From the NCBI GenBank assembly GCA_003646995.1, contig QMLZ01000003.1, positions 1-52,153 of the forward strand: a stretch of 52,153 bases of DNA, read 5' to 3'. This stretch comes from Deltaproteobacteria bacterium (GTDB lineage Bacteria > Desulfobacterota > DSM-4660 > Desulfatiglandales > Desulfatiglandaceae). The notes under the pieces are model-generated. The model was given only the letters and a program-made list of their open reading frames with translations. It made no database searches and was not told the origin of the DNA. Position 1 is the stretch's first letter, and each line of letters opens with the position of its first letter. Below are positions 32,434 to 44,623 of the stretch, piece by piece. Both the position numbers and the translations under genes were made by a program.

Positions 32434-33699
32434 TTAGATGCCTTCAATATACTTTTTCATGTCTAAGGCGGCACGCTTGGCATCGCAAATGCATTCGGCC
32501 ACATCCATGGGCCCCTGCGCCGTACCCGCTACCACGACACCTTGCTTTAAATTCTCCTCTCCTGCCACAAGGAATCCGTCTTCATTAACCTTCAAACCTA
32601 TTTCTTCACCCAGGGCCCGTCCTTGCTCGTTCGGGGACAGGCCGACTGTGAGAATGACTAAATCAAAGGCCTCTGAAATGGTCTTGTCTTCTACCTCAGA
32701 GAAATAACTAACCAAGATCTTGTGATCCTGCCATCCATAAAAGTCTCCGGGCAGGCACCTGACCATTCGGAGCTTTTGTTTTGCCTCATTATAATAACGT
32801 TCAAAATCCTTGCCGAAGTTCTGGACATCCATGTAGAACACGGTAATTTCCATGTCAGGAACCGTGTGAATCATACGTAGAGCCATGCGTAACGAATACC
32901 CGCAACAAACGCGGGAGCAATATTCCCTTCCGAGGCGTCTGTCCCTACTTCCAACGCACTGGACAAAAGCCACCTTCTTTGGCACATCATCGTCGGAAGG
33001 GCGAAAAATCCCCCCCCTTTCACGAAGCATCCTGTCTGCTTGCTCAGTGGTTATTACATTGGGCAGGTGACCGTATCCATACCGGTTGGGCGCTTCCGGC
33101 TCATAAGGACGAAAACCGGATGCTAACAAAACCCCTTTACCTTGTACCTGAAAAGACTCCACCTTGTCTGAAATGGTTATAGCCCCCTCTTGGCAGGCAC
33201 TTATGCAAGGAGGGGAAACCCCCTCACTTAAACACGTACACAGCTCCTGCCTAATGCCATAAAAGGGATGAATATTGATTGACGGCGCATGCGTGATAGC
33301 CTGATGTCCTGAACTCAGGCACGCCTCTAAGCACGCCCCACAGTCTGTACATTTTTCCTGGTCAATAGAACACCAACTTGGCTCTACTGTTATGATGAAA
33401 TTTCCCCCGTTCTTTTTGATACCAGTAACCTTTGCGTAATTCTTTACCTCTAGCGGACTGTTATTCTCTCTTACCTGCCTTAGCGCCTCTTCGACCAGGC
33501 AGTCATTACACTTGAGACAACGATCAGTAGCTTTGCAAGGCAAATTTGCAGCATGACCACCTATGAAAGGGCCTTTTTCAAGTAAAAGGATATCCTTTCC
33601 CATTTGTCCCAGCTCAAGTGCTGCAGTTAAGCCCGTTATCCCGCCTCCAACTATGATGACCCGGTCTTTTTTGACTGTCAGCTCGCTTTCGCCCGCCAT
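32434..33699 (-). CDS. QmoA/HdrA-like FAD oxidoreductase
   Basis: About 421 residues from the ATG at 33699, which has GAGGAG at ideal spacing; a TTG at 33723 would overlap metF. A normal FAD loop (VIIVGGGITGL) opens the protein. Cysteine clusters CLKCNDC, CTDCGAC and CLCT-like pairs follow, with the HdrA-type CVGSRDRR...YCSRVCC motif near residue 258-275 and an ATP/FAD end segment. The length equals that of QmoA and short HdrA proteins. It may be the flavin subunit that serves the two hybrid proteins, whose own flavin loops look altered. Confidence 0.8.
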   Translation of the reverse strand: MAGESELTVKKDRVIIVGGGITGLTAALELGQMGKDILLLEKGPFIGGHAANLPCKATDRCLKCNDCLVEEALRQVRENNSPLEVKNYAKVTGIKKNGGNFIITVEPSWCSIDQEKCTDCGACLEACLSSGHQAITHAPSINIHPFYGIRQELCTCLSEGVSPPCISACQEGAITISDKVESFQVQGKGVLLASGFRPYEPEAPNRYGYGHLPNVITTEQADRMLRERGGIFRPSDDDVPKKVAFVQCVGSRDRRLGREYCSRVCCGYSLRMALRMIHTVPDMEITVFYMDVQNFGKDFERYYNEAKQKLRMVRCLPGDFYGWQDHKILVSYFSEVEDKTISEAFDLVILTVGLSPNEQGRALGEEIGLKVNEDGFLVAGEENLKQGVVVAGTAQGPMDVAECICDAKRAALDMKKYIEGI

Positions 33700-33712
33700 T
33701 GTACTCTCCTCG

Positions 33713-34603
33713 TTATTTGCCAAGTCCTGCTTGTTCCAGTATCTGTGGAATCAACTCTTCATGGCCATTCATTGTAAGGTGAATTCCTGACCATCTATTT
33801 TCAGCTCTTATGTCTTTTATCATTGCCACCAAGAACTCTTGTGCTCTTGCCAAGGCCTCCACGTCTGTGGAAGCGCTCTTTATCTCGGAGATAACTTCAG
33901 AAGGTATTTCATTGCCGACAACTCTCCCCTTTTCATTTTGCTCAATATCTGCCATGGTAACAAGCCTCAATCCTGCTAGGGCCTTTACACCCTTGTCTTC
34001 CAGGAAATTCAAAAACTCTGCAGTACCCTCAACGCTGTATAGATCCAGAGTCTGGATAAAGTCCACCCCCGCCGTCAATTTCTTTTGGAGCTTTAATAAA
34101 TGAGGTTCTATGGGATCGGCAATGGGATTTGCCACGCAGCCCACGAAAAACTTGGGGCTTCCCTTCAACTCATTTCCGCCGATATCCTGCCCTGCTTCCA
34201 TCTGCCTTATCATGTTTATGAGTTGTACTGAGTCCAGATCATATACGGGCTTTGCCTGGGGCACATCACCCAAACTAACATAGTCACCGCTTACGCAAAG
34301 TACGGTGTCTATGCCAAGCGCATGAGCCCCCAAAAGGTCAGCACTTATGGCTATCCTGTTTCTATCCCTGCACGACACGGTCATAACAGGCTCTAAACCT
34401 TTTTCCTTTGCAAGGATTGAGGCGGAAAGTGCACTCAGACGGATGCTTGCTCCCCGGGAGTCCGGTAAATTTATGGCATCAACCTTGCCCGCCAACTTGC
34501 TCAGTATGGCCAAAAACTCACCTGTATCGGCCCCCCTAGGGGGATAGAGCCCAACTGTAACCACAAATTCACCTGATTCCAGTTTTTCTTTAAGTTTACT
34601 CAT
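33713..34603 (-). CDS. metF: Methylene-tetrahydrofolate reductase
   Basis: About 296-residue TIM-barrel flavoprotein interconverting methylene- and methyl-tetrahydrofolate in the methyl branch of the Wood-Ljungdahl pathway. ATG 34603 was chosen because AAGGAG lies 10 bases upstream; a longer frame to 34672 lies inside metV. Recognisable segments are VTVGLYPPRGADTGEF at the start, VMTVSCRDRNR (near 75), DTVLCVSGDYVSLGD and GVDFIQTLDLYSV. It overlaps metV by 8 bases and lies between metV and the QmoA-like gene. Electron donor or acceptor is expected to be the Hdr/MvhD complex rather than NAD(P)H directly. Confidence 0.92.
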   Translation of the reverse strand: MSKLKEKLESGEFVVTVGLYPPRGADTGEFLAILSKLAGKVDAINLPDSRGASIRLSALSASILAKEKGLEPVMTVSCRDRNRIAISADLLGAHALGIDTVLCVSGDYVSLGDVPQAKPVYDLDSVQLINMIRQMEAGQDIGGNELKGSPKFFVGCVANPIADPIEPHLLKLQKKLTAGVDFIQTLDLYSVEGTAEFLNFLEDKGVKALAGLRLVTMADIEQNEKGRVVGNEIPSEVISEIKSASTDVEALARAQEFLVAMIKDIRAENRWSGIHLTMNGHEELIPQILEQAGLGK

Positions 34604-35276
34604 GGGCCGAATATCTCCTTCTGTACGCCTTGTGGCTGAGCACTGCTGGCGTCGTGGTTCTTGAATAGTCACTAGGTGCCATTACCCTCCGCAGTTGCTC
34701 GACGCGACCCGTCTCCTTCATTCGCTCATATATCAGTACCCATGCACAGGTCCTTTCCGGGTCAACTTCACACCTGCCATTGGCCATACCTGAACATGGT
34801 CCGTTCAGCAGCCCTTTTGGACACATGGTGACAGGACATATGCCACCAGTAAATGCCAAGTAGCATTGGTTACACATCCTGCATCGCTCTGTCCAAAACC
34901 CCACGTCGTCATTGGAACCAATGAAACACGTGTCAACGCCTGGCAGCACCACCTTCTGTGGATACATCTCAGAGACAAATTGGATCCCCACTCCACAGGC
35001 CAGCGACAGGATAACAGGGTAGTCATTCAGCCGATTCCGTAACTCCTCGATGAATTCCCTGTCACATTGTCTCTCCACTGTTGCCTCGCCAATGTCTAAG
35101 GCCTTACCCCTTAACTCCGCGGCAATGGAAAGCTGGGCTGAGAGGATTCCTACCTCTTTCTCTCCCCCGGCCAGGCACACTGCAACGCAGGTGCCACAGC
35201 CAAGTATCAGTACTCTGTCATATCCTTCCAGACTCTCCATTATCTCGCTAAAGGGCTTTCGTCTGGCTACTATCAT
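34596..35276 (-). CDS. metV: MetV-type MTHFR partner protein
   Basis: 226-residue cysteine-rich protein, the small partner of MetF in acetogens and other Wood-Ljungdahl bacteria. It shows LGCGTCVAVCLAGG near residue 26, ACGVGIQ near 93, CFIG, and a dense C-terminal Cys set (CRMCNQCYL, CPVTMCPKG, GPCSG, CEVD, CAW) that binds Fe-S clusters and probably zinc. The protein links MetF electronically to HdrA in the MetFV-HdrABC-MvhD arrangement. The stop overlaps the metF start (ATGAGTAA), so the two are coupled. Confidence 0.88.
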   Translation of the reverse strand: MIVARRKPFSEIMESLEGYDRVLILGCGTCVAVCLAGGEKEVGILSAQLSIAAELRGKALDIGEATVERQCDREFIEELRNRLNDYPVILSLACGVGIQFVSEMYPQKVVLPGVDTCFIGSNDDVGFWTERCRMCNQCYLAFTGGICPVTMCPKGLLNGPCSGMANGRCEVDPERTCAWVLIYERMKETGRVEQLRRVMAPSDYSRTTTPAVLSHKAYRRRYSAHE

Positions 35277-35349
35277 CTTACTGATTCTCCTTCATTAACT
35301 CCGCGCCACCTCACCCGAACGGGCAAGGCCCATGCCAAGCCAGCCAAAT

Positions 35350-35802
35350 CTACCTCCCACCAAACTCCGGTATCGCTCCCTGGCTCTTTCTTACCAATTT
35401 CAGAGGATTAGGGCCCAAGCTCTTAATCTTATCTGTCATCTCTTTGACCTTTTCAGCCCATAATGGAGCATCAGAAGCACCGATGTGATACATTTCCAGT
35501 CTGTCCGCTCCTATTTCTATCTCCTCCAGTAACTCCTTTGCGTGCTCCACTCGTTCCTTGGCCCTCAAATTTCCTTCCAGGAAATGGCAGTCGCCAATCT
35601 CTCATCCCCCCACAAGAACCCCATCAGCCCCTGCTTGAAAACTCTTAAGGATATGAATAATGTCGACCCTTCCCGTGCAAGGAAGCTTCACAATCCTCAC
35701 ATTGGGAGGGTATTGAAGCCTCATGGAACCGGCCATATCCGCCGCCGTATAGGTGCAGTACGTACACACCATCGCGATTATTTTGGGTTCAAATTCATCC
35801 AT
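35350..35802 (-). CDS. mvhD: MvhD-type electron transfer subunit with selenocysteine
   Basis: 150-residue [2Fe-2S] protein that links HdrA to an electron donor (hydrogenase, formate dehydrogenase or MetFV). Conventional translation stops at TGA 35604-35602. The same frame then continues EIGDCHFLEGN and a normal C-terminal half. MvhD proteins read G-C-H-x-G-D-C-H-Y at this place, so the TGA replaces the first of two ligand cysteines (Sec67). The other ligands are intact: MVCTYC (near residue 12) and LPCTGRVD (near 42). A perfect hairpin follows the TGA. Selenocysteine here has precedent in VhuD of Methanococcus. The start overlaps the hdrA stop by 8 bases. Confidence 0.88.
35569..35585 (-). 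promoter_or_regulatory. Candidate bacterial SECIS hairpin in mvhD
   Basis: Arms ATTTCC (35585-35580) and GGAAAT (35574-35569) pair perfectly around the loop TGGAA. The loop starts 23 bases after the TGA, close to the spacing in E. coli fdhF, and carries the GG expected for SelB recognition. Confidence 0.6.
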
Positions 35803-38800
35803 ACAGTGCCATCTCCTTAGCCAATATCTGGTCGTCTTTCATGTGCTGCACCTGGATCAATTTCCTCGGGCATGCACTAGCACATATACCGCATCCATGG
35901 CATTCTGCAGGGTCAATGCGTATGAAACCATCATCACCGACCTTGGGCACGCCAAACGGACATGAACGCGCACATGTCATGCACAAAACACATTTTTCCC
36001 TGTCAACAACCGCCACCTGGGCCTCAACCATCATATGATCTTTGGAAAGAATCTCTGCTGCCCTAGCGGCGGCGCCCTTGGCTTGCGCGATGCTTTCGTC
36101 TAAGAATTTCGGCCCATGCGCTAATCCACACAAGAAGTAGCCTGCATTTGCAAAATCCAACGGTCTCAGTTTGACATGTGCTTCTAGGAAAAAGCCGTCC
36201 TCGTCAAGGGGAAGCTTGAGAGTTGTTGCAAGCTCTCTTGTAGATTCTTCTGGTCTTATGGCCACGCTCAAAACCAAATAGTCAGCCTTAAGCGTCATCT
36301 CCTCGCCCAAACTTTGGTCAAAAACCTTGACCTCCAACCCATTATCCCTTTCCCTGACACTGGGCATCTGGGAGGGATCATACCTTATAAATTGGACACC
36401 CGCCTCCCTTGCCTCCTTATAAAGCAGCTCATACAGCCCAAATGTCCTAATATCTCTGTAAAGAACGAATACTTCGGTCTCAGGATCATTGCTTTTCACC
36501 CTGAGAGCGTTTGTAACCGCTTGTGTACAGCAAAGCCGGCTGCAGTATGGATTGCGCTCGTCCCGTGAGCCCACACACTGTATCATCACGACATTTGTTG
36601 CTCTTGGAAATTTATCGCCTTGTGCAAGGATTGCTTGAAATTCCCGCTGCGTGAAAACCTTAGGACTTTTGCCGTAAAGGTATTCTTCCGGCTTATACTC
36701 AGACCCGCCCGTGGCTATGATGGTCGCACCGTGAGATATTACCTCTTGGCTTTCGCCGACCTTTATGGTTGAAAGAAATTTTCCCACGTGCCCCGAAGTA
36801 CCTATAACCTGGGCCCCAGTGTATATTGTTATCCTCTGATCCTTACTAACATTGTCAATAGTCTCCTGCACAAGGCTCCTTATATCCTCACCCCTGGGCC
36901 CATAATAGAGCTTCAATGCATTGCCACCCAGCTCGCGATCCCTTTCCACTAGGTACACCCTGAACCCTTGATCAGACAGGTTCAGAGCCGCCGTCATTCC
37001 GGCCATTCCCCCTCCAATCACCAAGGCAGACTGTGAGACCTCGAACGGGAACTCGTAAAGAGGCTCCAATAACAGGCTGCGGGCCACTGACATGCGGACC
37101 AGATCCTTGGCCTTTTCCGTCGCCGCCTCTGGAACATTCGAATGGACCCAAGAGCACTGGTCCCTGATATTTGCCATCTCCACGAGATATTTATTTAAAC
37201 CAGCCTTTCGCGCAGTGTCCTGAAACAAAGATTCATGTGTCCTTGGAGAGCATGACGCGATAACAACCCTGTTAAGACTATACTCAGCGATAATATCCTG
37301 TATCTTTGTTTGAGTATCAGTGGAACAGGTAAATAGAAAATGATCCGCAAAAACAACATTTGGCAATGTCAAGGCATACTCTGCAACAGATGCCACATCC
37401 ACTACTGAGGCGATGTTGTTGCCGCAGTGGCAAACAAATACTCCAATTCTGGGCTCCTCTCCTAAGGTAGGTATCTCATCAAGATACTTGTCCTCTGATA
37501 TTAAGGTATTCCTGGCTTCTCCCAGCATGGCCATGGCCTCTGCAGAGGCACTGCTCGCTTGGGTTACGGAATCCGGTATGTCCTTTGGTCCCTGAGCTAC
37601 CCCGCATACGAATATGCCTTCCCTATCGGTAGATACGAGGTCCATGGGCTGGTTTTCAAAAAAGCCAAACCTGTCCAGGCTTACGCCTAGCTTTTCAGCC
37701 ACATCACGGCAATACGTATTAGGCGAAAAACCGACCGATAGTACCATCAAGTCAAAAACTTCATCCTTAAATTCACCGTCCTGGTCAAGGTAATGGACCT
37801 CAAGGTCATGGGTCACTGGATCCTCGGTTATCCGCGAAATCATACTTCTCACGTATCGAACTCCATGCTCCCTCTTGGCTCGCTCGTAGTATCTATCAAA
37901 ACCTTTCCCTTGAGCCCTTATATCAATGAAAAATATGGTGGGTTGTATTCTGGGATCATGTTCTCGAGCTATGATCGCCTCCTTAGTGGCGTACATGCAG
38001 CAGGCATAAGAGCAATAATCCTTACCCTTAGAGGCATCTCTGGATCCAACACACTGAATCCACCCGATCTTTACCGGCTCCTTACCGTCAGAAGGCCTCT
38101 GTATGTGCCCCTCGAATGGCCCTGCTGCAGAAAGAAATCGCTCGAATTCAATGCTGGTTATCACATTGGGATAGCGGTCATAACCGTATTCGGGCCTGAG
38201 CATTGGGTCAGTAACTTCAAACCCGGTAGCAAGTATTATTGCGCCCGCATTCACTTCACTGATGCGATCCTTTTGGCCGAAGTCAATAGCATTGTTCTCG
38301 CAGAATTTTTCACAGGCCCGGCACTTTCCCTTTTGGAAGTAAGCACATCTTTCAGCATCAATGGTGTAGACAGATGGGATCGCCTGCGTAAAGGTGAGGT
38401 ATATTGCTTTCCTATCGTTCAACCCCTCATTAAACTCATTGGGCACTGTCCTAGGGCACTTGGAAGCGCAAACACCGCACGACACGCACTTATCTTCATC
38501 AACATATCTGGCCCTCTTGTTGATTCTTATCTTAAAGTTACCGGCTTGACCCTGTGCTTCCACGATCTCACAATAGGCCATTATTTCTATGTTGGGGTGC
38601 TTGGCCACTTCAATCAGCTTTGGAGATATGATACAAGTAGAGCAATCGTTGGTAGGAAAGGTCTTGTCCAGTTGCGGCATTATACCGCCTATGCTGGCCC
38701 TTCGCTCAACCAGATAGACCTTGAAACCTGCGTTTGCCAAGTCAAGGGAGGCCTGCATGCCCGAGATGCCGCCACCCACTACCATGACAGAGCCTACTTT

Positions 38801-38821
38801 TTGCAACCCAATATTGTCCAT
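35795..38821 (-). CDS. hdrA: HdrA, double-headed flavoprotein
   Basis: 1008-residue flavin/iron-sulfur protein, about 1.5 times a usual HdrA. Residues 1-430 form an HdrA-like unit with its own FAD loop (VGGGISGM near 15), CVSCGVCASKCP (near 113) and a CVGSRD...YCSYACC motif. Residues about 455-600 match the HdrA N-terminal domain (CHCGNNIA). A second FAD unit follows (IGGGMAGM near 608; CVGSRDERNPYCSRLCC near 757-773). The C-terminus has two [4Fe-4S] motifs (CVLCMTCARSCP, CHGCGICASACP). Two FADs in one chain suggest electron bifurcation or dual entry points. It lies between hdrB and mvhD. Confidence 0.92.
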   Translation of the reverse strand: MDNIGLQKVGSVMVVGGGISGMQASLDLANAGFKVYLVERRASIGGIMPQLDKTFPTNDCSTCIISPKLIEVAKHPNIEIMAYCEIVEAQGQAGNFKIRINKRARYVDEDKCVSCGVCASKCPRTVPNEFNEGLNDRKAIYLTFTQAIPSVYTIDAERCAYFQKGKCRACEKFCENNAIDFGQKDRISEVNAGAIILATGFEVTDPMLRPEYGYDRYPNVITSIEFERFLSAAGPFEGHIQRPSDGKEPVKIGWIQCVGSRDASKGKDYCSYACCMYATKEAIIAREHDPRIQPTIFFIDIRAQGKGFDRYYERAKREHGVRYVRSMISRITEDPVTHDLEVHYLDQDGEFKDEVFDLMVLSVGFSPNTYCRDVAEKLGVSLDRFGFFENQPMDLVSTDREGIFVCGVAQGPKDIPDSVTQASSASAEAMAMLGEARNTLISEDKYLDEIPTLGEEPRIGVFVCHCGNNIASVVDVASVAEYALTLPNVVFADHFLFTCSTDTQTKIQDIIAEYSLNRVVIASCSPRTHESLFQDTARKAGLNKYLVEMANIRDQCSWVHSNVPEAATEKAKDLVRMSVARSLLLEPLYEFPFEVSQSALVIGGGMAGMTAALNLSDQGFRVYLVERDRELGGNALKLYYGPRGEDIRSLVQETIDNVSKDQRITIYTGAQVIGTSGHVGKFLSTIKVGESQEVISHGATIIATGGSEYKPEEYLYGKSPKVFTQREFQAILAQGDKFPRATNVVMIQCVGSRDERNPYCSRLCCTQAVTNALRVKSNDPETEVFVLYRDIRTFGLYELLYKEAREAGVQFIRYDPSQMPSVRERDNGLEVKVFDQSLGEEMTLKADYLVLSVAIRPEESTRELATTLKLPLDEDGFFLEAHVKLRPLDFANAGYFLCGLAHGPKFLDESIAQAKGAAARAAEILSKDHMMVEAQVAVVDREKCVLCMTCARSCPFGVPKVGDDGFIRIDPAECHGCGICASACPRKLIQVQHMKDDQILAKEMALYG

Positions 38822-38849
38822 TTTCCAGTCTTAGCAGATAGCAGTAACC

Positions 38850-39728
38850 TCAGGCTAGTGCACCCTCAAGTCCATCAGCCAGCAGGGCCGAAGAATCAAC
38901 AAAGTGCATCTTGATCCACTTTCTCGCGTCTTTGTGCCCCAAGGCTAATCCAATAAGCTCTGTGAAGTAGAAAACTGGGAGAGATCCTTTCAAGCCCTGT
39001 TCCTTCATAATCCTTTCCTGATATAAATCAAGGTTGGCGTGACACATTTGGCAAGATACAATGATACAATTGGCTCCTGCACGAAAAGCCCTCTCAAACA
39101 GTTTACCCACCAACTTTGAAACAAGATCCGGCCTAGCAACCACGTGACTTGCCCCGCAACAATCTGTCTTGTGGGACCAAGGCCTCACTTTCACTCCTAG
39201 GGCAGAGATAATGAGGTCCATACTAACGGGATCTTCATAACGTTTTTCACCTGTAATCTTTGGCGGTCGGCTCGCCATGCATCCGTAGTAGCACACTGCC
39301 TTAAGGTGCCCCAATTCCCGGGCCTTTAATTCTTTGATTCGATCAAGTATCTCGCCTCTGGCAAGGAAGGTTGCCAAGTCCCATATCTGGATCTTCCCTC
39401 CTTTGATCTTCACATCGTACAAGTCTTTCCTTTCCCCGGTTAGCTCCCTTTCAGCGGTCTTGAGCCTATTAAAACAAAGCGGGCAGGGAACCACCATATC
39501 TTTCCCTGCCTGCTCAGCAAGCATCACGTTCCTACCAGCGAGATTTATTGCAACCCTCTTGTTAAGGCTATGGGCCGCTGTTGCTCCACAACAATTCCAA
39601 TCTGCAAGTTCCTGGAGCTCAATATCAAGCATATCACAGACTGCTTCTACTGACTTAGCATAGTCCCTCGCAGTCCCTCTCAGAGAGCACCCTGGGTAGT
39701 AACTTACCTTTTGGATGCGCTCTTTCAT
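38850..39728 (-). CDS. hdrB: HdrB
   Basis: 292-residue subunit with the two CCG domains of heterodisulfide reductase. The ligands are YYPGCSLRG (near residue 12), NCCGATAAH (near 46), CPLCFNR (near 82), YYGCMAS (near 146), DCCGASHV (near 190) and CQMCHANL (near 229). These bind noncubane [4Fe-4S] clusters that in methanogens reduce CoM-S-S-CoB; bacterial substrate unknown. It is coupled to hdrC by an ATGA overlap and precedes hdrA by 28 bases. Confidence 0.93.
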   Translation of the reverse strand: MKERIQKVSYYPGCSLRGTARDYAKSVEAVCDMLDIELQELADWNCCGATAAHSLNKRVAINLAGRNVMLAEQAGKDMVVPCPLCFNRLKTAERELTGERKDLYDVKIKGGKIQIWDLATFLARGEILDRIKELKARELGHLKAVCYYGCMASRPPKITGEKRYEDPVSMDLIISALGVKVRPWSHKTDCCGASHVVARPDLVSKLVGKLFERAFRAGANCIIVSCQMCHANLDLYQERIMKEQGLKGSLPVFYFTELIGLALGHKDARKWIKMHFVDSSALLADGLEGALA

Positions 39729-40312
39729 TTACTACTCGGCCCTCGCTGCCCCTTCATTAGGTCCCTCACCTCCCGTCTACCCTTAATCCTCTCTGGAAGA
39801 AGAGGTAACCTCCCTTTGAAAAAAAGCCTTTGACCCATCTTCACATCTTCCCAAATGGAACCATTCTTCACCTTTGAAAACAGCTCCCCGCTCCTGAGCA
39901 TGTAACTTTGCATCAGGCCTCCTTCGAAGACGCGTCCCCTTTTCTCTATTTCTTTCAGGAAGCTCTCATGAAATGCCAAAGTCTTGCGTTCAGGGGGTTG
40001 GATGCCAGATCGAACGGCCGACTCCTTTAAAAAATCCATCACAGCCGCTATGTCAACCTCGTTCGGGCACCTAGTAGTGCAGGTCTCACACGAAGAGCAA
40101 ATCCAAATAGTGCTACATTTCATCACCCTGTCCAGTTGCCCCATAGCGACCCGTCGAATTACTTCGTCGGGATAGAGGTCCATTGCAAAGGTCACAGGGC
40201 AACCGTTAGTGCACCGCCTGCACTGAAAGCAGGATGAAACTTTTAATAACTTATGGAGCTCCTCTTTTATGGCATCAGAGTTTTCTGTGAAGCTTTTCTC
40301 TCCGATCTCCAC
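39725..40312 (-). CDS. hdrC: HdrC
   Basis: About 195-residue ferredoxin-like subunit with two [4Fe-4S] motifs, CFQCRRCTNGCP (near residue 30) and CSSCETCTTRCP (near 73). The start is probably the GTG at 40312, because GAGGTGG lies five bases upstream; another GTG at 40318 is inside that ribosome site. It is the first gene of the long minus-strand redox cluster and overlaps hdrB by four bases. A C-terminal extension of about 70 basic residues follows the cluster domain. Confidence 0.9.
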   Translation of the reverse strand: MEIGEKSFTENSDAIKEELHKLLKVSSCFQCRRCTNGCPVTFAMDLYPDEVIRRVAMGQLDRVMKCSTIWICSSCETCTTRCPNEVDIAAVMDFLKESAVRSGIQPPERKTLAFHESFLKEIEKRGRVFEGGLMQSYMLRSGELFSKVKNGSIWEDVKMGQRLFFKGRLPLLPERIKGRREVRDLMKGQRGPSSK

Positions 40313-40324
40313 AACCACCTCATT

Positions 40325-40481: not shown

Positions 40482-41429
40482 ATGAATAGTGAGGAAAAGG
40501 ATTTTTACGAAAGGTTATCCGAAAAAGGAGTCTCACGAAGAGACTTCATGAAGTACTGCGGCATGCTGACAGCTACACTTGGGCTTTCATCCTCTTTTAT
40601 CCCCAAGGTAGCCGAAGTCTTCGCCGCACCCAAACAGCGTCCTCCGGTAATTTGGCTGCAATTTGCTGAATGTACGGGATGCTCAGAAGCTCTCCTTAGG
40701 ACAATGTACCCCTGGATGGATGAATTAGTTCTAGAGATCCTTTCCGTCGAGTATCATGAAACCATTATGGCTGCAGCCGGCCACCAAGCAGAAGAAATCC
40801 TGAAATCTTCCGTAGAGAAGTACAAAGGCAAATTTATTTGCGTAGTCGAAGGGGCCATATCGACAAAGGACAACGGAGTGTATGGGAAGATTGGTGGCAA
40901 AACTTTTCTAGAAATTGCCAAGGAAGTTTGCCCCAAAGCAGCTGCCGTTGTCTGCATGGGCACATGCTCTTCTTACGGAGGTGTCCAGGCAGCAGCCCCA
41001 AACCCCGGCGGTTATAAGGGTGTAGGCGAGGCACTCGGTATCAAGACAGTAAATATCCCGGGTTGTCCACCAAATCCTATTAATCTCGTTGGCACCGTGG
41101 TCAACTATCTCCTCCTAGGAAAGTTGCCTGAACTTGATGAACTGGGCAGACCACTGTTCGCTTATGGAAAAACCATTCACGATCAATGTCCCAGAAGATC
41201 ACATTATGAAAACGACGAATTTGTTGAAGAATTCGGCTCTGAAGAAGCGGCCCAGGGATATTGCCTGTACAAGATGGGTTGCAAGGGGCCGGATACTTAT
41301 AACAACTGCCCGATTGCAAAGTTCAACGACGGCACCAGCTTTCCAATTGAGGCTGGACATCCTTGCATCGGGTGCAGTGAACCGGATTTCTGGGACAAAA
41401 TGAGCCCATTTTATGTTGAGAGCGAATAG
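40482..41429 (+). CDS. hynB: Periplasmic [NiFe] hydrogenase small subunit
   Basis: 315-residue iron-sulfur subunit. An N-terminal Tat signal (SRRDFMK at residues 18-24, hydrophobic to about 49) exports the folded dimer to the periplasm. Proximal-cluster ligands begin in CTGCSEALL (near residue 65) with MGTCSSYGG (near 160) and PGCPPNP. The distal His/Cys ligands lie around HDQCPRRSH, and further Cys in KMGCKGPDTYNNCP and HPCIGCSEPDFW. It ends there without a membrane anchor. A GGGAGG ribosome site precedes the ATG. It is followed 53 bases later by the large subunit. Confidence 0.95.
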   Translation: MNSEEKDFYERLSEKGVSRRDFMKYCGMLTATLGLSSSFIPKVAEVFAAPKQRPPVIWLQFAECTGCSEALLRTMYPWMDELVLEILSVEYHETIMAAAGHQAEEILKSSVEKYKGKFICVVEGAISTKDNGVYGKIGGKTFLEIAKEVCPKAAAVVCMGTCSSYGGVQAAAPNPGGYKGVGEALGIKTVNIPGCPPNPINLVGTVVNYLLLGKLPELDELGRPLFAYGKTIHDQCPRRSHYENDEFVEEFGSEEAAQGYCLYKMGCKGPDTYNNCPIAKFNDGTSFPIEAGHPCIGCSEPDFWDKMSPFYVESE

Positions 41430-41482: not shown

Positions 41483-43123
41483 ATGGCCAAAAAAATAACT
41501 ATAGATCCGATTACCCGAATTGAGGGACATCTTAGAATCGAGGTAGAAATCTCTGGTGGCAAAGTCATAAACGCCTGGAGCTCTGGACAGATGTTCAGGG
41601 GAATTGAGATCATCTTGCAGGGGAGGGATCCAAGAGATGCACCGCTTATAACGCAACGCGTCTGAGGCGTCTGAACGATGACGCATTACCTGGCCTCGGT
41701 GAGGGCAGTGGAAAACGCGGTAGGAGTTCAGATTCCCGACAACGCCAGAATAATCAGGAACATGTTGCATGGTGCGCAATTCCAACATGACCACATTGTG
41801 CATTTTTATCATCTTCATGCCTTAGACTGGGTTGATGTGGTCAGTGCTTTAAAGGCAGATCCCAAGAAAACCGCCTCTCTTGCTGACAACGTGAGTGAAG
41901 CCCCTTGGGGTGGTACCTCTTACTTCAAGCAGGTCCAACAGAGAATAAAGACCTTCGTGGAAAGCGGCCAGCTAGGCCCCTTTAATAACGCCTACTGGGG
42001 TCACCCCGCCTATAAGTTGCCTCCGGAGGCTAATCTTATGGCGGTCTCCCACTATATAGAGGCACTAAGGCTTCAGGCCAAGGCTGCAAGAATGCATGCT
42101 GTATTTGGCGCAAAAAATCCTCATCTGCAAAGCTTTGTTGTTGGCGGCGTGACCTGTGTGGGCGACCTTACCCCCGATCGAGTGGCAGAATTCCTTTACC
42201 TATGGAAGGAAACACAGGATTTTGTGAAAAAAGTTTACTTGCCAGACATACTGGCGGTCGCCTCATTTTACAAGGAATGGGGAGGCATAGGCGGCACCAC
42301 CAATTTCCTAGCCTGGGGTGACCTGCCCGAATCAGACAAGGAACCAGAAAGCTTGTTTATGCCAAGGGGAGTGATAATGAAGCGAGACCTTGCAGGTGTT
42401 AAGATGGCTGATCCTGCCAAGGTTACCGAACATGTGGCCCATTCTTGGTACAAGGGCGATGTCGCCAGACATCCTTCAAAAGGGGTAACTGACCCACAAC
42501 CTGGAGACTACGATACCACAGATAGATATAGCTGGTTCAAGGCACCCAGGTATGAGGGAGAGCCGTGCGAGGTCGGTCCTTTGGCAAGAGTGCTCGTAGC
42601 CTATTCTTGGGGCAAAAAAGAGATTAAGGAAATTGTTGACAGTGTTGTCAGCAAACTAGGGATTCCTTTGACAGCCCTCTTCTCTACCCTGGGTCGAACT
42701 GCAGCTAGATGCATCGAGACCGTGGCAATTGGAAATGCCATGGAAAAATGGACAATGGAGCTGGTTGGAAACCTCAAGAAGGGCAACACCAAGACTTATG
42801 AGTCTTGGGAGATGCCAAAGAGCGCTATGGGCTGCGGATTAAACGATGTGGCTAGAGGGTCACTAGGGCACTGGATAGAAATTGAAAACAAAAAGATAAA
42901 AAATTACCAGCTAGTTGTTCCTTCTACATGGAACCTTGGTCCTCGTTGCAAAAACGGCAAACTTGGGCCGGTTGAAGAGGCCCTCATTGGAACACCAGTT
43001 GCAGACCCCAAGCGGCCTCTTGAGGTTCTTAGGACGGTACATTCCTTTGATCCTTGTGTCGCCTGCGGTGTCCATGTGATAGATCCGGATTCCAACCAGG
43101 TCTATAAGATCAGAGCGACATAA
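41483..43123 (+). CDS. hynA: [NiFe] hydrogenase large subunit with two selenocysteines in L1
   Basis: Catalytic subunit, 546 residues when two in-frame TGA codons are read as selenocysteine. The N-terminus (ITIDPITRIEGHL) is normal. At the L1 site, where the family has R-x-C-G-x-C-x-x-x-H, the DNA encodes R-V-TGA-G-V-TGA-T-M-T-H (TGA at 41663 and 41672; Sec61 and Sec64), and the frame continues intact with YLASVRAVENA. Those two residues bind nickel terminally and bridge Ni-Fe. L2 is ordinary DPCVACGVH (C525, C528), followed by a 15-residue tail for protease removal. In known NiFeSe enzymes Sec sits in L2, so this pattern is unusual. Ribosome site GGAGAGGAG is good. Ordinary translation would give a useless 60-residue peptide. 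Confidence 0.88.
41690..41708 (+). promoter_or_regulatory. Candidate SECIS hairpin in hynA
   Basis: CTGGCC (41690-41695) pairs with GGGCAG (41703-41708), with one G-G mismatch, around the loop TCGGTGA. The loop begins about 22 bases after the second TGA and 31 after the first, so one hairpin could lie in the working range of both. A second small stem (GCGTC 41667-41671 with GACGC 41680-41684) places the second TGA at the start of its loop. Drawn by eye only. Confidence 0.4.
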
Positions 43124-43334: not shown

Positions 43335-43880
43335 ATGAAGACTGAGGAAATAACCAGAAGCCCCCAAATAATCGTCCTTGGAGTGGGAAATCTGCTTCTG
43401 CGTGATGAAGGCCTTGGAATCAGGGCGTTGGAGCTACTTGGGCAGCGCTATCGTTTTCCAGATAATGTTTCATTAGAAGACGGCGGCGTATTAGGTATTC
43501 ACCTCCTTGGAACTATCACAAGAGCTGATTACCTTATTGTAATAGATGCCATAAAAAACGGCCAGCCACCCGGTACCTTATATAGGCTGAAAGGTGAGGA
43601 CATTCCCCAAAGAATCCTTGCAAAAAACTCCCTCCATGAAATCGACCTGCTTGAGGCACTTACTCTTTGCCATGCATTTGACAAGGTACCCGATACCGTT
43701 ATCTTGGGTATTGAACCCCATGACATTGAGACAATCAGCCTGGATCTTACTCCAGTGGTAAAGGATAAACTAGAAGAATTGTTGGATATGGTTCTGGAGG
43801 AATTGAAAAACCTTGGTATTGAACCTATTGAGAAAATCGAAAAGGAGCACTTCAAATATGTGTCTTGCGATCCCTGCTAA
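43335..43880 (+). CDS. hynC: Hydrogenase maturation protease
   Basis: 181-residue endopeptidase of the HyaD/HybD family that removes the C-terminal tail of the large subunit after nickel insertion. GVGNLLLRDEG (near residue 16-26) carries the first nickel-sensing acid, VIDAIK (near 73) the second and GIEPHD (near 132) the His. The C-terminus extends about 20 residues and ends in CDPC, inside the overlap with hypC. There is no ribosome site, and a promoter abuts the ATG, suggesting a leaderless message. Separated from hynA by a terminator, so it is expressed independently. Confidence 0.92.
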   Translation: MKTEEITRSPQIIVLGVGNLLLRDEGLGIRALELLGQRYRFPDNVSLEDGGVLGIHLLGTITRADYLIVIDAIKNGQPPGTLYRLKGEDIPQRILAKNSLHEIDLLEALTLCHAFDKVPDTVILGIEPHDIETISLDLTPVVKDKLEELLDMVLEELKNLGIEPIEKIEKEHFKYVSCDPC

Positions 43881-44091
43881 GATAATAGATATTCAGGATG
43901 GAATGGGAACCATCGATATGGATGGCACAAAGAGACAGGTAAGCCTTCTTCTGCTAAGCAATGCACAGGTGGGCGATTATGTGATTGTCCACGCAGGTTT
44001 TGCCATCCATAAAATAGACGAAGAAGAAGCCATGGAATCCCTGAGGGTCCTGCGGGAAATGGCTGAAATGATAGATGAAGACCAAACTTGA
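43858..44091 (+). CDS. hypC: Hydrogenase assembly chaperone HypC
   Basis: 77-residue chaperone that carries the Fe(CN)2CO unit to the large subunit. It begins MCLAIPAKI, where the Cys after the initiator Met is the functional residue. The start at 43858 is fixed by this motif and by AAAGGAG upstream. It overlaps hynC by 23 bases. No other hyp genes are in the window, so hypABDEF must be elsewhere. Confidence 0.95.
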   Translation: MCLAIPAKIIDIQDGMGTIDMDGTKRQVSLLLLSNAQVGDYVIVHAGFAIHKIDEEEAMESLRVLREMAEMIDEDQT

Positions 44092-44197: not shown

Positions 44198-44623
44198 ATG
44201 AGGAAAAAAGGTTTTGGGCTTCTGGTAGTTTTGCTCATGGGCCTCCTTTTCTTGGTGGTGGGGGTTTTGTGTGCGGCTGATAAGGGCCCGGACACTATCT
44301 GTATACAAAACACAGGGTACAAAGCTGACAAAAAGGGTCCCGTCACTTTCAGCCACAAGAAACACCACGATGATTACGGAATCGCCTGCACAGAATGCCA
44401 TCATAATTATCAGAATGGCAAGAATGTGTGGAAAGAAGGCGATCCTGTAAAGCATTGTAAGGACTGCCACAACCCACTCAAGAAACAAGGTAAGGTGCTA
44501 AAACTCCAGAACGCTTACCATAAAAACTGTAAGACCTGTCACAAGAAACTGGCAAAAGAAGGGAAAAAGACCGGCCCTTACAAGAAATGTAGTAAGTGCC
44601 ATGCAAAGAAGAAAAAGTCTTAA
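44198..44623 (+). CDS. Tetraheme cytochrome c (class III, cytochrome c3 type)
   Basis: 141-residue periplasmic electron carrier. A signal peptide covers about residues 1-26. The mature part has four CxxCH heme sites (CTECH, CKDCH, CKTCH, CSKCH) and extra axial His residues in FSHKKHH near residue 53 and AYHKNC. Spacing and size fit cytochrome c3, the usual electron acceptor of periplasmic hydrogenases in sulfate reducers. The C-terminal region is highly basic, suited to docking. It has AGGAGGTGA as ribosome site and its own promoter downstream of hypC, and is closed by a strong terminator. Confidence 0.93.
   Translation: MRKKGFGLLVVLLMGLLFLVVGVLCAADKGPDTICIQNTGYKADKKGPVTFSHKKHHDDYGIACTECHHNYQNGKNVWKEGDPVKHCKDCHNPLKKQGKVLKLQNAYHKNCKTCHKKLAKEGKKTGPYKKCSKCHAKKKKS

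Follow-up and report, generated by a model that had tools for sequence, protein, structure and literature searches.

In the [NiFe] hydrogenase of Desulfovibrio vulgaris Miyazaki F, Cys81 and Cys546 are the terminal nickel ligands, and Cys84 and Cys549 bridge nickel and iron. Selenium is part of such a site in the [NiFeSe] enzyme HysAB and in the Vhu/Fru/Mvh selenoenzymes, which have a single selenocysteine (Sec), located in the L2 motif at a terminal ligand. To our knowledge, a single terminal ligand, in L2, is the only place where selenium occurs naturally in the active site of a hydrogenase. In Escherichia coli Hyd-2, Sec has been engineered singly at positions 61, 64, 546 and 549, and all four variants were reported to be active, at levels below that of the native enzyme (PMC11212049). 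An inventory published in 2026, whose Table 1 covers 119 families and subfamilies of prokaryotic selenoproteins, has hydrogenase large-subunit rows with one Sec, in UxxC, and shows no hydrogenase with Sec in L1 (PMC13188914); the inventory is not complete for hydrogenases, because classical HysA has no separate row. A search of the open-licence literature, with preprints outside its scope, found no publication on Sec in L1 of a natural hydrogenase.

The large subunit and its L1 and L2 motifs

The window analyzed here, a stretch of 52,153 nucleotides in all, contains a gene for a group-1 [NiFe] hydrogenase large subunit at 41483-43123 on the plus strand (PF00374, 743 bits, residues 39-531 on profile positions 1-508). 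The initial annotation had described this frame as intact apart from TGA at 41663 and 41672, and frame reading agrees: the only stops before the TAA are TGA at codons 61 (UGA 1, 41663-41665) and 64 (UGA 2, 41672-41674), and the protein has 546 residues if both are read. Both TGAs are in the L1 motif, RV*GV*TMTH. The best PDB chain for the large subunit is 1h2a, the D. vulgaris Miyazaki F enzyme, and the alignment places residues 61/64 on 81/84 and residues 525/528 on 546/549, which upholds the earlier claim that the TGAs fall exactly on the two L1 Cys positions. Residue 61 is presumably the terminal Ni-ligand position of L1 and residue 64 the Ni-Fe bridging position. The L2 motif (43049-43075, plus strand) reads DPCVACGVH, with both Cys positions present as TGT and TGC codons, and is thus all-Cys, as had been stated.

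The window gene resembles the D. vulgaris Miyazaki F type (1h2a) in its large-subunit fold, as judged by sequence, its L2 cysteines, and its small subunit, protease and HypC. It differs in having UGA at both L1 Cys positions and a SECIS-like hairpin behind them. Features of group 1 at the locus are a large subunit matching PF00374, its Tat-type small subunit, the L2 pattern DPCxxCxxH, a C-terminal extension after the His, and a matching protease; in the L1 pattern RxCGxC, both Cys codons are replaced by TGA. Taken together, these sequence features place the gene by descent with the group-1 [NiFe] hydrogenases, the L1 cysteines being the sole point of departure.

HysAB and the Vhu/Fru/Mvh selenoenzymes likewise have a [NiFe] large subunit in which UGA encodes a nickel-ligand position, but they have one Sec, in L2, whereas the window gene has a Cys L2 and two UGAs in L1. 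Identity as a HysA-type [NiFeSe] enzyme was ruled out by the Cys-Cys L2 and by a score of 424.7 with NF045518, for which the cut-off is 780. The engineered Hyd-2 variants share the numbering 61/64 with the window gene; they carry one Sec at a time, reportedly inserted via UAG, whereas the arrangement in the window is natural, has both positions together, and uses UGA (PMC11212049).

The hydrogenase cluster

A small subunit, protease, HypC and cytochrome partner had been reported beside the large subunit, and all four are present on the plus strand. Three of them score above curated cut-offs: the small subunit with a Tat signal at 40482-41429 (TIGR00391, 427 bits, cut-off 179.5; TIGR01409, 26 bits, cut-off 16.7; also PF14720 and PF01058), the HupD/HyaD-type maturation protease at 43335-43880 (TIGR00140, 159.9 bits, cut-off 151.8) and the HypC chaperone at 43858-44091 (TIGR00074, 88 bits, cut-off 48). 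The fourth, a TmcA-like tetraheme cytochrome c3 with four CxxCH motifs at 44198-44623, exceeds the Pfam cut-off (PF02085, 50 bits, cut-off 22.9) and falls below that of the TmcA model (NF045722, 75 bits, cut-off 114). With codon states given in the order residue 61/residue 64, relatives of this cytochrome stand in 7 of 10 UGA/UGA loci, 4 of 26 Cys/UGA loci and 2 of 43 Cys/Cys loci, counts that are only a hint of a partner because the locus lengths differ.

There is no general reassignment of UGA, since the neighboring hypC gene uses TGA as its ordinary stop codon. Within the large-subunit gene, UGA occurs only at the two Cys positions. A reading of UGA as a sense codon (Trp or Gly) across the whole organism, for which no evidence was found, can therefore be given almost no weight.

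Further along the window, on the strand opposite to the hydrogenase, the DsrMKJOP genes are present, with every subunit over its cut-off; the host is therefore probably a sulfate reducer. At 32434-40318 on the minus strand there are genes resembling those for HdrA, HdrB, HdrC and MetF, none of which reaches its curated cut-off; they possibly encode a methylene-THF reductase complex.

Distribution of UGA codons in L1

In a scan of species-representative genomes, the best 80 of 128 confirmed relatives were kept. Homologues with Cys or UGA at both L1 positions, proposed in the initial annotation as a check, do exist. The 79 of 80 loci that cover L1 are UGA/UGA in 10 cases, Cys/UGA in 26, Cys/Cys in 43 and UGA/Cys in none (L042, whose 5' end is missing, was left out of the codon counts). 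The in-frame UGAs are thus aligned with Cys in 43 Cys/Cys homologues. Separately assembled relatives among the 10 UGA/UGA loci carry the identical TGA pair, and chance or read error as the source of the TGAs is ruled out by recurrence in 10 of 79 loci and, far from these, in L142 and L151.

At first sight, a gene with two stops resembles a decayed one. However, identical stops are found in many species, and none of the 50 coding sequences with UGA has a further stop between its ATG and its end, which is a stop codon or, in 8 of the 50, the end of the stretch. Nor is dN higher before the UGAs than after them: in comparisons of the window gene with other UGA/UGA genes, dN over residues 2-58 was lower than over residues 67-546 in 9 of 9 cases. 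The synonymous and dN analysis kept 52 rows and left out 41 distant or partial ones, and dN/dS was dropped in favor of dN because synonymous sites are saturated in most pairs. UGA/UGA genes occur in 12 genomes (G001-G010, G323 and G676), and nine of these (G001-G009) have no other PF00374 match, and hence no other recognizable [NiFe] hydrogenase. A decayed pseudogene, or a pair of assembly errors, is extremely improbable in view of these results.

Translation might also stop at UGA and restart at Met66, yielding the 481-residue protein that gene callers write. An ATG does stand one codon behind UGA 2. Among the 120 listed matches to public proteins (8000 scored), 118 are Cys/Cys and two, P0001 and P0071, start behind the UGAs at Met66 (compare 41678-43123 in the window), from which it follows that gene callers cut these enzymes short. 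A restart product would have only two of the four Ni ligands, however, and position 66 is Tyr, not Met, in 23 of 27 Cys/UGA genes. The region before the UGAs is as conserved as the remainder, and restart is accordingly quite improbable. Met66 and Phe218, and less sharply Ser393, mark the UGA/UGA genes of the main clade, although these residues may only follow the tree; at the set thresholds, no residue marks all UGA genes of the main clade against its Cys genes.

Genomes were searched at the DNA level with the pattern R-x-[Cys/UGA]-G-[V/I/M]-UGA-[T/S/P/A]-x-x-H. Matches lacking a hydrogenase frame or L2 were counted as chance; L139 and L163, which end before L2, were retained as hydrogenases on their profile match. 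After this filtering, genes with the L1-UGA pattern were present in 21 of 85 genomes from G002's class, in 13 of 395 genomes in its phylum (Desulfobacterota, inferred) and in 5 of 400 genomes in the phylum of G035 (Chloroflexota), with the centre genome counted in each case. The classical L2-Sec pattern matched in 130 of the 395 genomes, chance included, and at least 50 genomes were read by eye as having a hydrogenase L2 of this kind, as against 13 with the L1-Sec pattern. UGA at the terminal position only (UGA/Cys), seen in 0 of 79 loci, gave matches in 8 of the 395 genomes of G002's phylum, all of them lacking a hydrogenase frame or L2. The most L1-like of the terminal-only matches, L187 and L188, were read out and are not hydrogenases.

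The two UGA/UGA genes outside the window clade, L142 and L151, are distant from it and belong to two phyla, one in each; each adjoins a small-subunit gene and a cytochrome b gene. L128, L157 and L168 are Vhu/Mvh-like large subunits of group 3 with Cys/UGA in L1, and their scores of 417-419 bits with the VhuA model are below its cut-off of 800. The best PDB match of L168 is MvhA, and L168 lies downstream of genes for a large HdrA-like FAD/Fe-S protein, a FlpD protein and a small-subunit-like protein. With L128, L157 and L168 (L212), L1 UGA thus occurs separately in another group of hydrogenases.

A SECIS-like hairpin behind the second UGA

The bacterial SECIS follows a distance rule, with the hairpin close behind the UGA. 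In the window, a SECIS-like hairpin occupies 41690-41708 on the plus strand, with the loop GGU at 41698-41700 and one G-G mismatch in the stem. All 39 UGA genes of the main clade can form this hairpin; the loop is GGU in 37 and GGC in 2, and its first base is 24 nt downstream of UGA 2 and 33 nt downstream of UGA 1. Six of the eight stem pairs are invariant in these genes. Of the other two, pair 6-24 is C-G in 33, U-G in 4 and U-A in 2, and pair 9-21 is U-G in 34 and G-U in 1, while the remaining 4, including the window gene, have a G-G mismatch.

Relative synonymous diversity over residues 69-75 is 0.06 in 37 UGA genes, where the gene median is 0.92 and none of the 315 segments compared has a lower value; of the six residues scored between 70 and 75, five lack any synonymous variation. 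In 15 Cys/Cys genes of the main clade, diversity over residues 69-75 is 0.84, from four scored residues, and the constraint is absent. When hairpins were compared with synonymous shuffles, the mean z was -2.12 for UGA/UGA, -1.64 for Cys/UGA and -0.39 for Cys/Cys genes, and single genes reached p <= 0.05 in 11 of 13, 16 of 37 and 3 of 43 cases, respectively; the hairpins of L142 and L151 were not significant in this comparison (p 0.24 and 0.65). Lying close behind the UGAs, with G in the first loop bases and under selection, the hairpin has features of a bacterial SECIS and represents a putative SelB site. An Rfam scan of the window at gathering cut-offs matched nothing but a tRNA in another part of the stretch.

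Genes of the Chloroflexota type and of group 3 have hairpins of a different build, with the loop 23-24 nt after UGA 2, which suggests that their L1 UGAs are of separate origin. L011 and L080, which are now Cys/Cys, still carry the hairpin letters and are likely to be recent Sec-to-Cys reversions with a fossil signal.

Selenocysteine machinery and the possibility of cysteine insertion

The machinery scan took 50 of the 80 loci, comprising all 10 UGA/UGA, all 26 Cys/UGA and 14 of the 43 Cys/Cys loci. In the 12 UGA/UGA genomes, tRNA-Sec scores above 70 bits in 10, and matches over the cut-off were obtained for selB in 11, selA in 10 and selD in 11. The eight main tRNA-Sec genes that were read have the anticodon UCA and G73. 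The exceptions all concern draft genomes: no tRNA-Sec was found in G001, where the best match is a tRNA-Leu, and only a U73-type tRNA in G009; selB is below the cut-off in G006 and selD in G008; and selA was not found in G009 and G010. A selD match over the cut-off was present in 16 of 19 genomes, and in all 16 it has one in-frame TGA.

The UGAs might be read as Cys, always or under selenium scarcity, by a tRNA-Sec-like tRNA-Cys (selC*, with U73 and UCA) together with a second-type SelB and, in some species, a special CysRS, which would leave an ordinary or an S/Se-switching site. Reviews describe the selC* tRNA-Cys/selB*/cysS* system in Desulfobacterales and its translation of Sec UGA codons as Cys (PMC7609411, PMC11415595); what it inserts is thus Cys, not Sec. 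Its hallmarks, U73, UCA and a second-type SelB, recur in the genomes of the relatives: ten selC*-type tRNA genes (88-92 nt, T at the discriminator position) stand with a second-type SelB, their UCA anticodon being assigned by ARAGORN in nine and by eye in L214. The selC*/selB* cassette is present in at least 5 of the 12 UGA/UGA genomes (G002, G007, G009, G010 and G323), and in G007 and G010 the SelB of the cassette is the only one over the cut-off. In G323, the cassette is followed by a cysS-like gene (TIGR00435, 405 bits), of which none was found in the other cassette stretches.

On the other hand, 7 of the 12 UGA/UGA genomes showed no such cassette, although the weaker tRNA matches were read only in part and one of the seven, G004, does have a second-type SelB (L099). 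The tRNA-Sec matches above 70 bits in 10 of the 12 genomes, with G73 in the 8 that were read, also argue against this reading. Permanent decoding as Cys would, moreover, leave unexplained why UGA and the hairpin are retained and why they are restricted to redox ligands. Insertion of Cys in place of Sec is thus unlikely, though it deserves more weight than restart, decay or a general reassignment of UGA.

A selC*-type tRNA (U73, UCA) with a second-type SelB was recorded at L089-L097, L099, L214 and L215. Neighbors of the cassette in G323 and G007 include a double-cubane reductase and its activase. In G323 it is also accompanied by YedF, a selD match and the cysS-like gene, and in G007 by YedE.

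History of the L1 states

A tree was made by a quick method from 88 of 93 large subunits, with the two UGA sites removed; L139 and L163 (cut short) and L128, L157 and L168 (group 3) were left out. UGA/UGA requires at least six changes on this tree, five of them forced by well-supported branches, and the three L1 states together require 19 changes, compared with a shuffle mean of 36.4. The window's set and L142 group with Cys/UGA genes, and L151 is placed in a group of five Cys/Cys genes and one Cys/UGA gene. The simplest reading for the main clade is that Sec would have arisen at the bridging position, together with the hairpin, before it arose at the terminal position. The terminal UGA is nine bases upstream of the bridging UGA and, on the simplest reading, within reach of the hairpin that serves the latter. 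The history of the main clade would then have run from Cys-Cys to Cys-Sec (bridging) and, more than once, to Sec-Sec, with losses back to Cys.

Proposed decoding and its implications

The best explanation, to which we assign a probability of about 0.87, is that both L1 UGAs are decoded as Sec via one downstream SECIS-like hairpin, with a Ni site predicted to have a terminal and a bridging selenolate. SelB would bind the hairpin behind UGA 2 and supply Sec-tRNA for both UGAs. The Ni-Fe center would be matured by HypC and the protease, and electrons would exit through the small subunit to the c3 cytochrome. A more far-reaching proposal is a hidden class of hydrogenases with a selenolate Ni-Fe bridge, spread over two phyla and two hydrogenase groups, repeatedly with two selenolates and one SECIS for both UGAs; together with selC*/selB*, it would include a chalcogen switch that gives [NiFeSe2] if selenium is available and plain [NiFe] if not. 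This broader proposal is speculative, and we consider it doubtful in its full extent.

If the Sec reading is true, nature has made bridging and second terminal selenium variants of the hydrogenase site many times. The effect of a bridging selenolate on catalytic bias, oxygen recovery and Ni-Fe coupling would then become testable, as would the service of two UGAs nine bases apart by one SECIS. Because gene callers truncate such enzymes, the H2 metabolism of these bacteria may be under-annotated.
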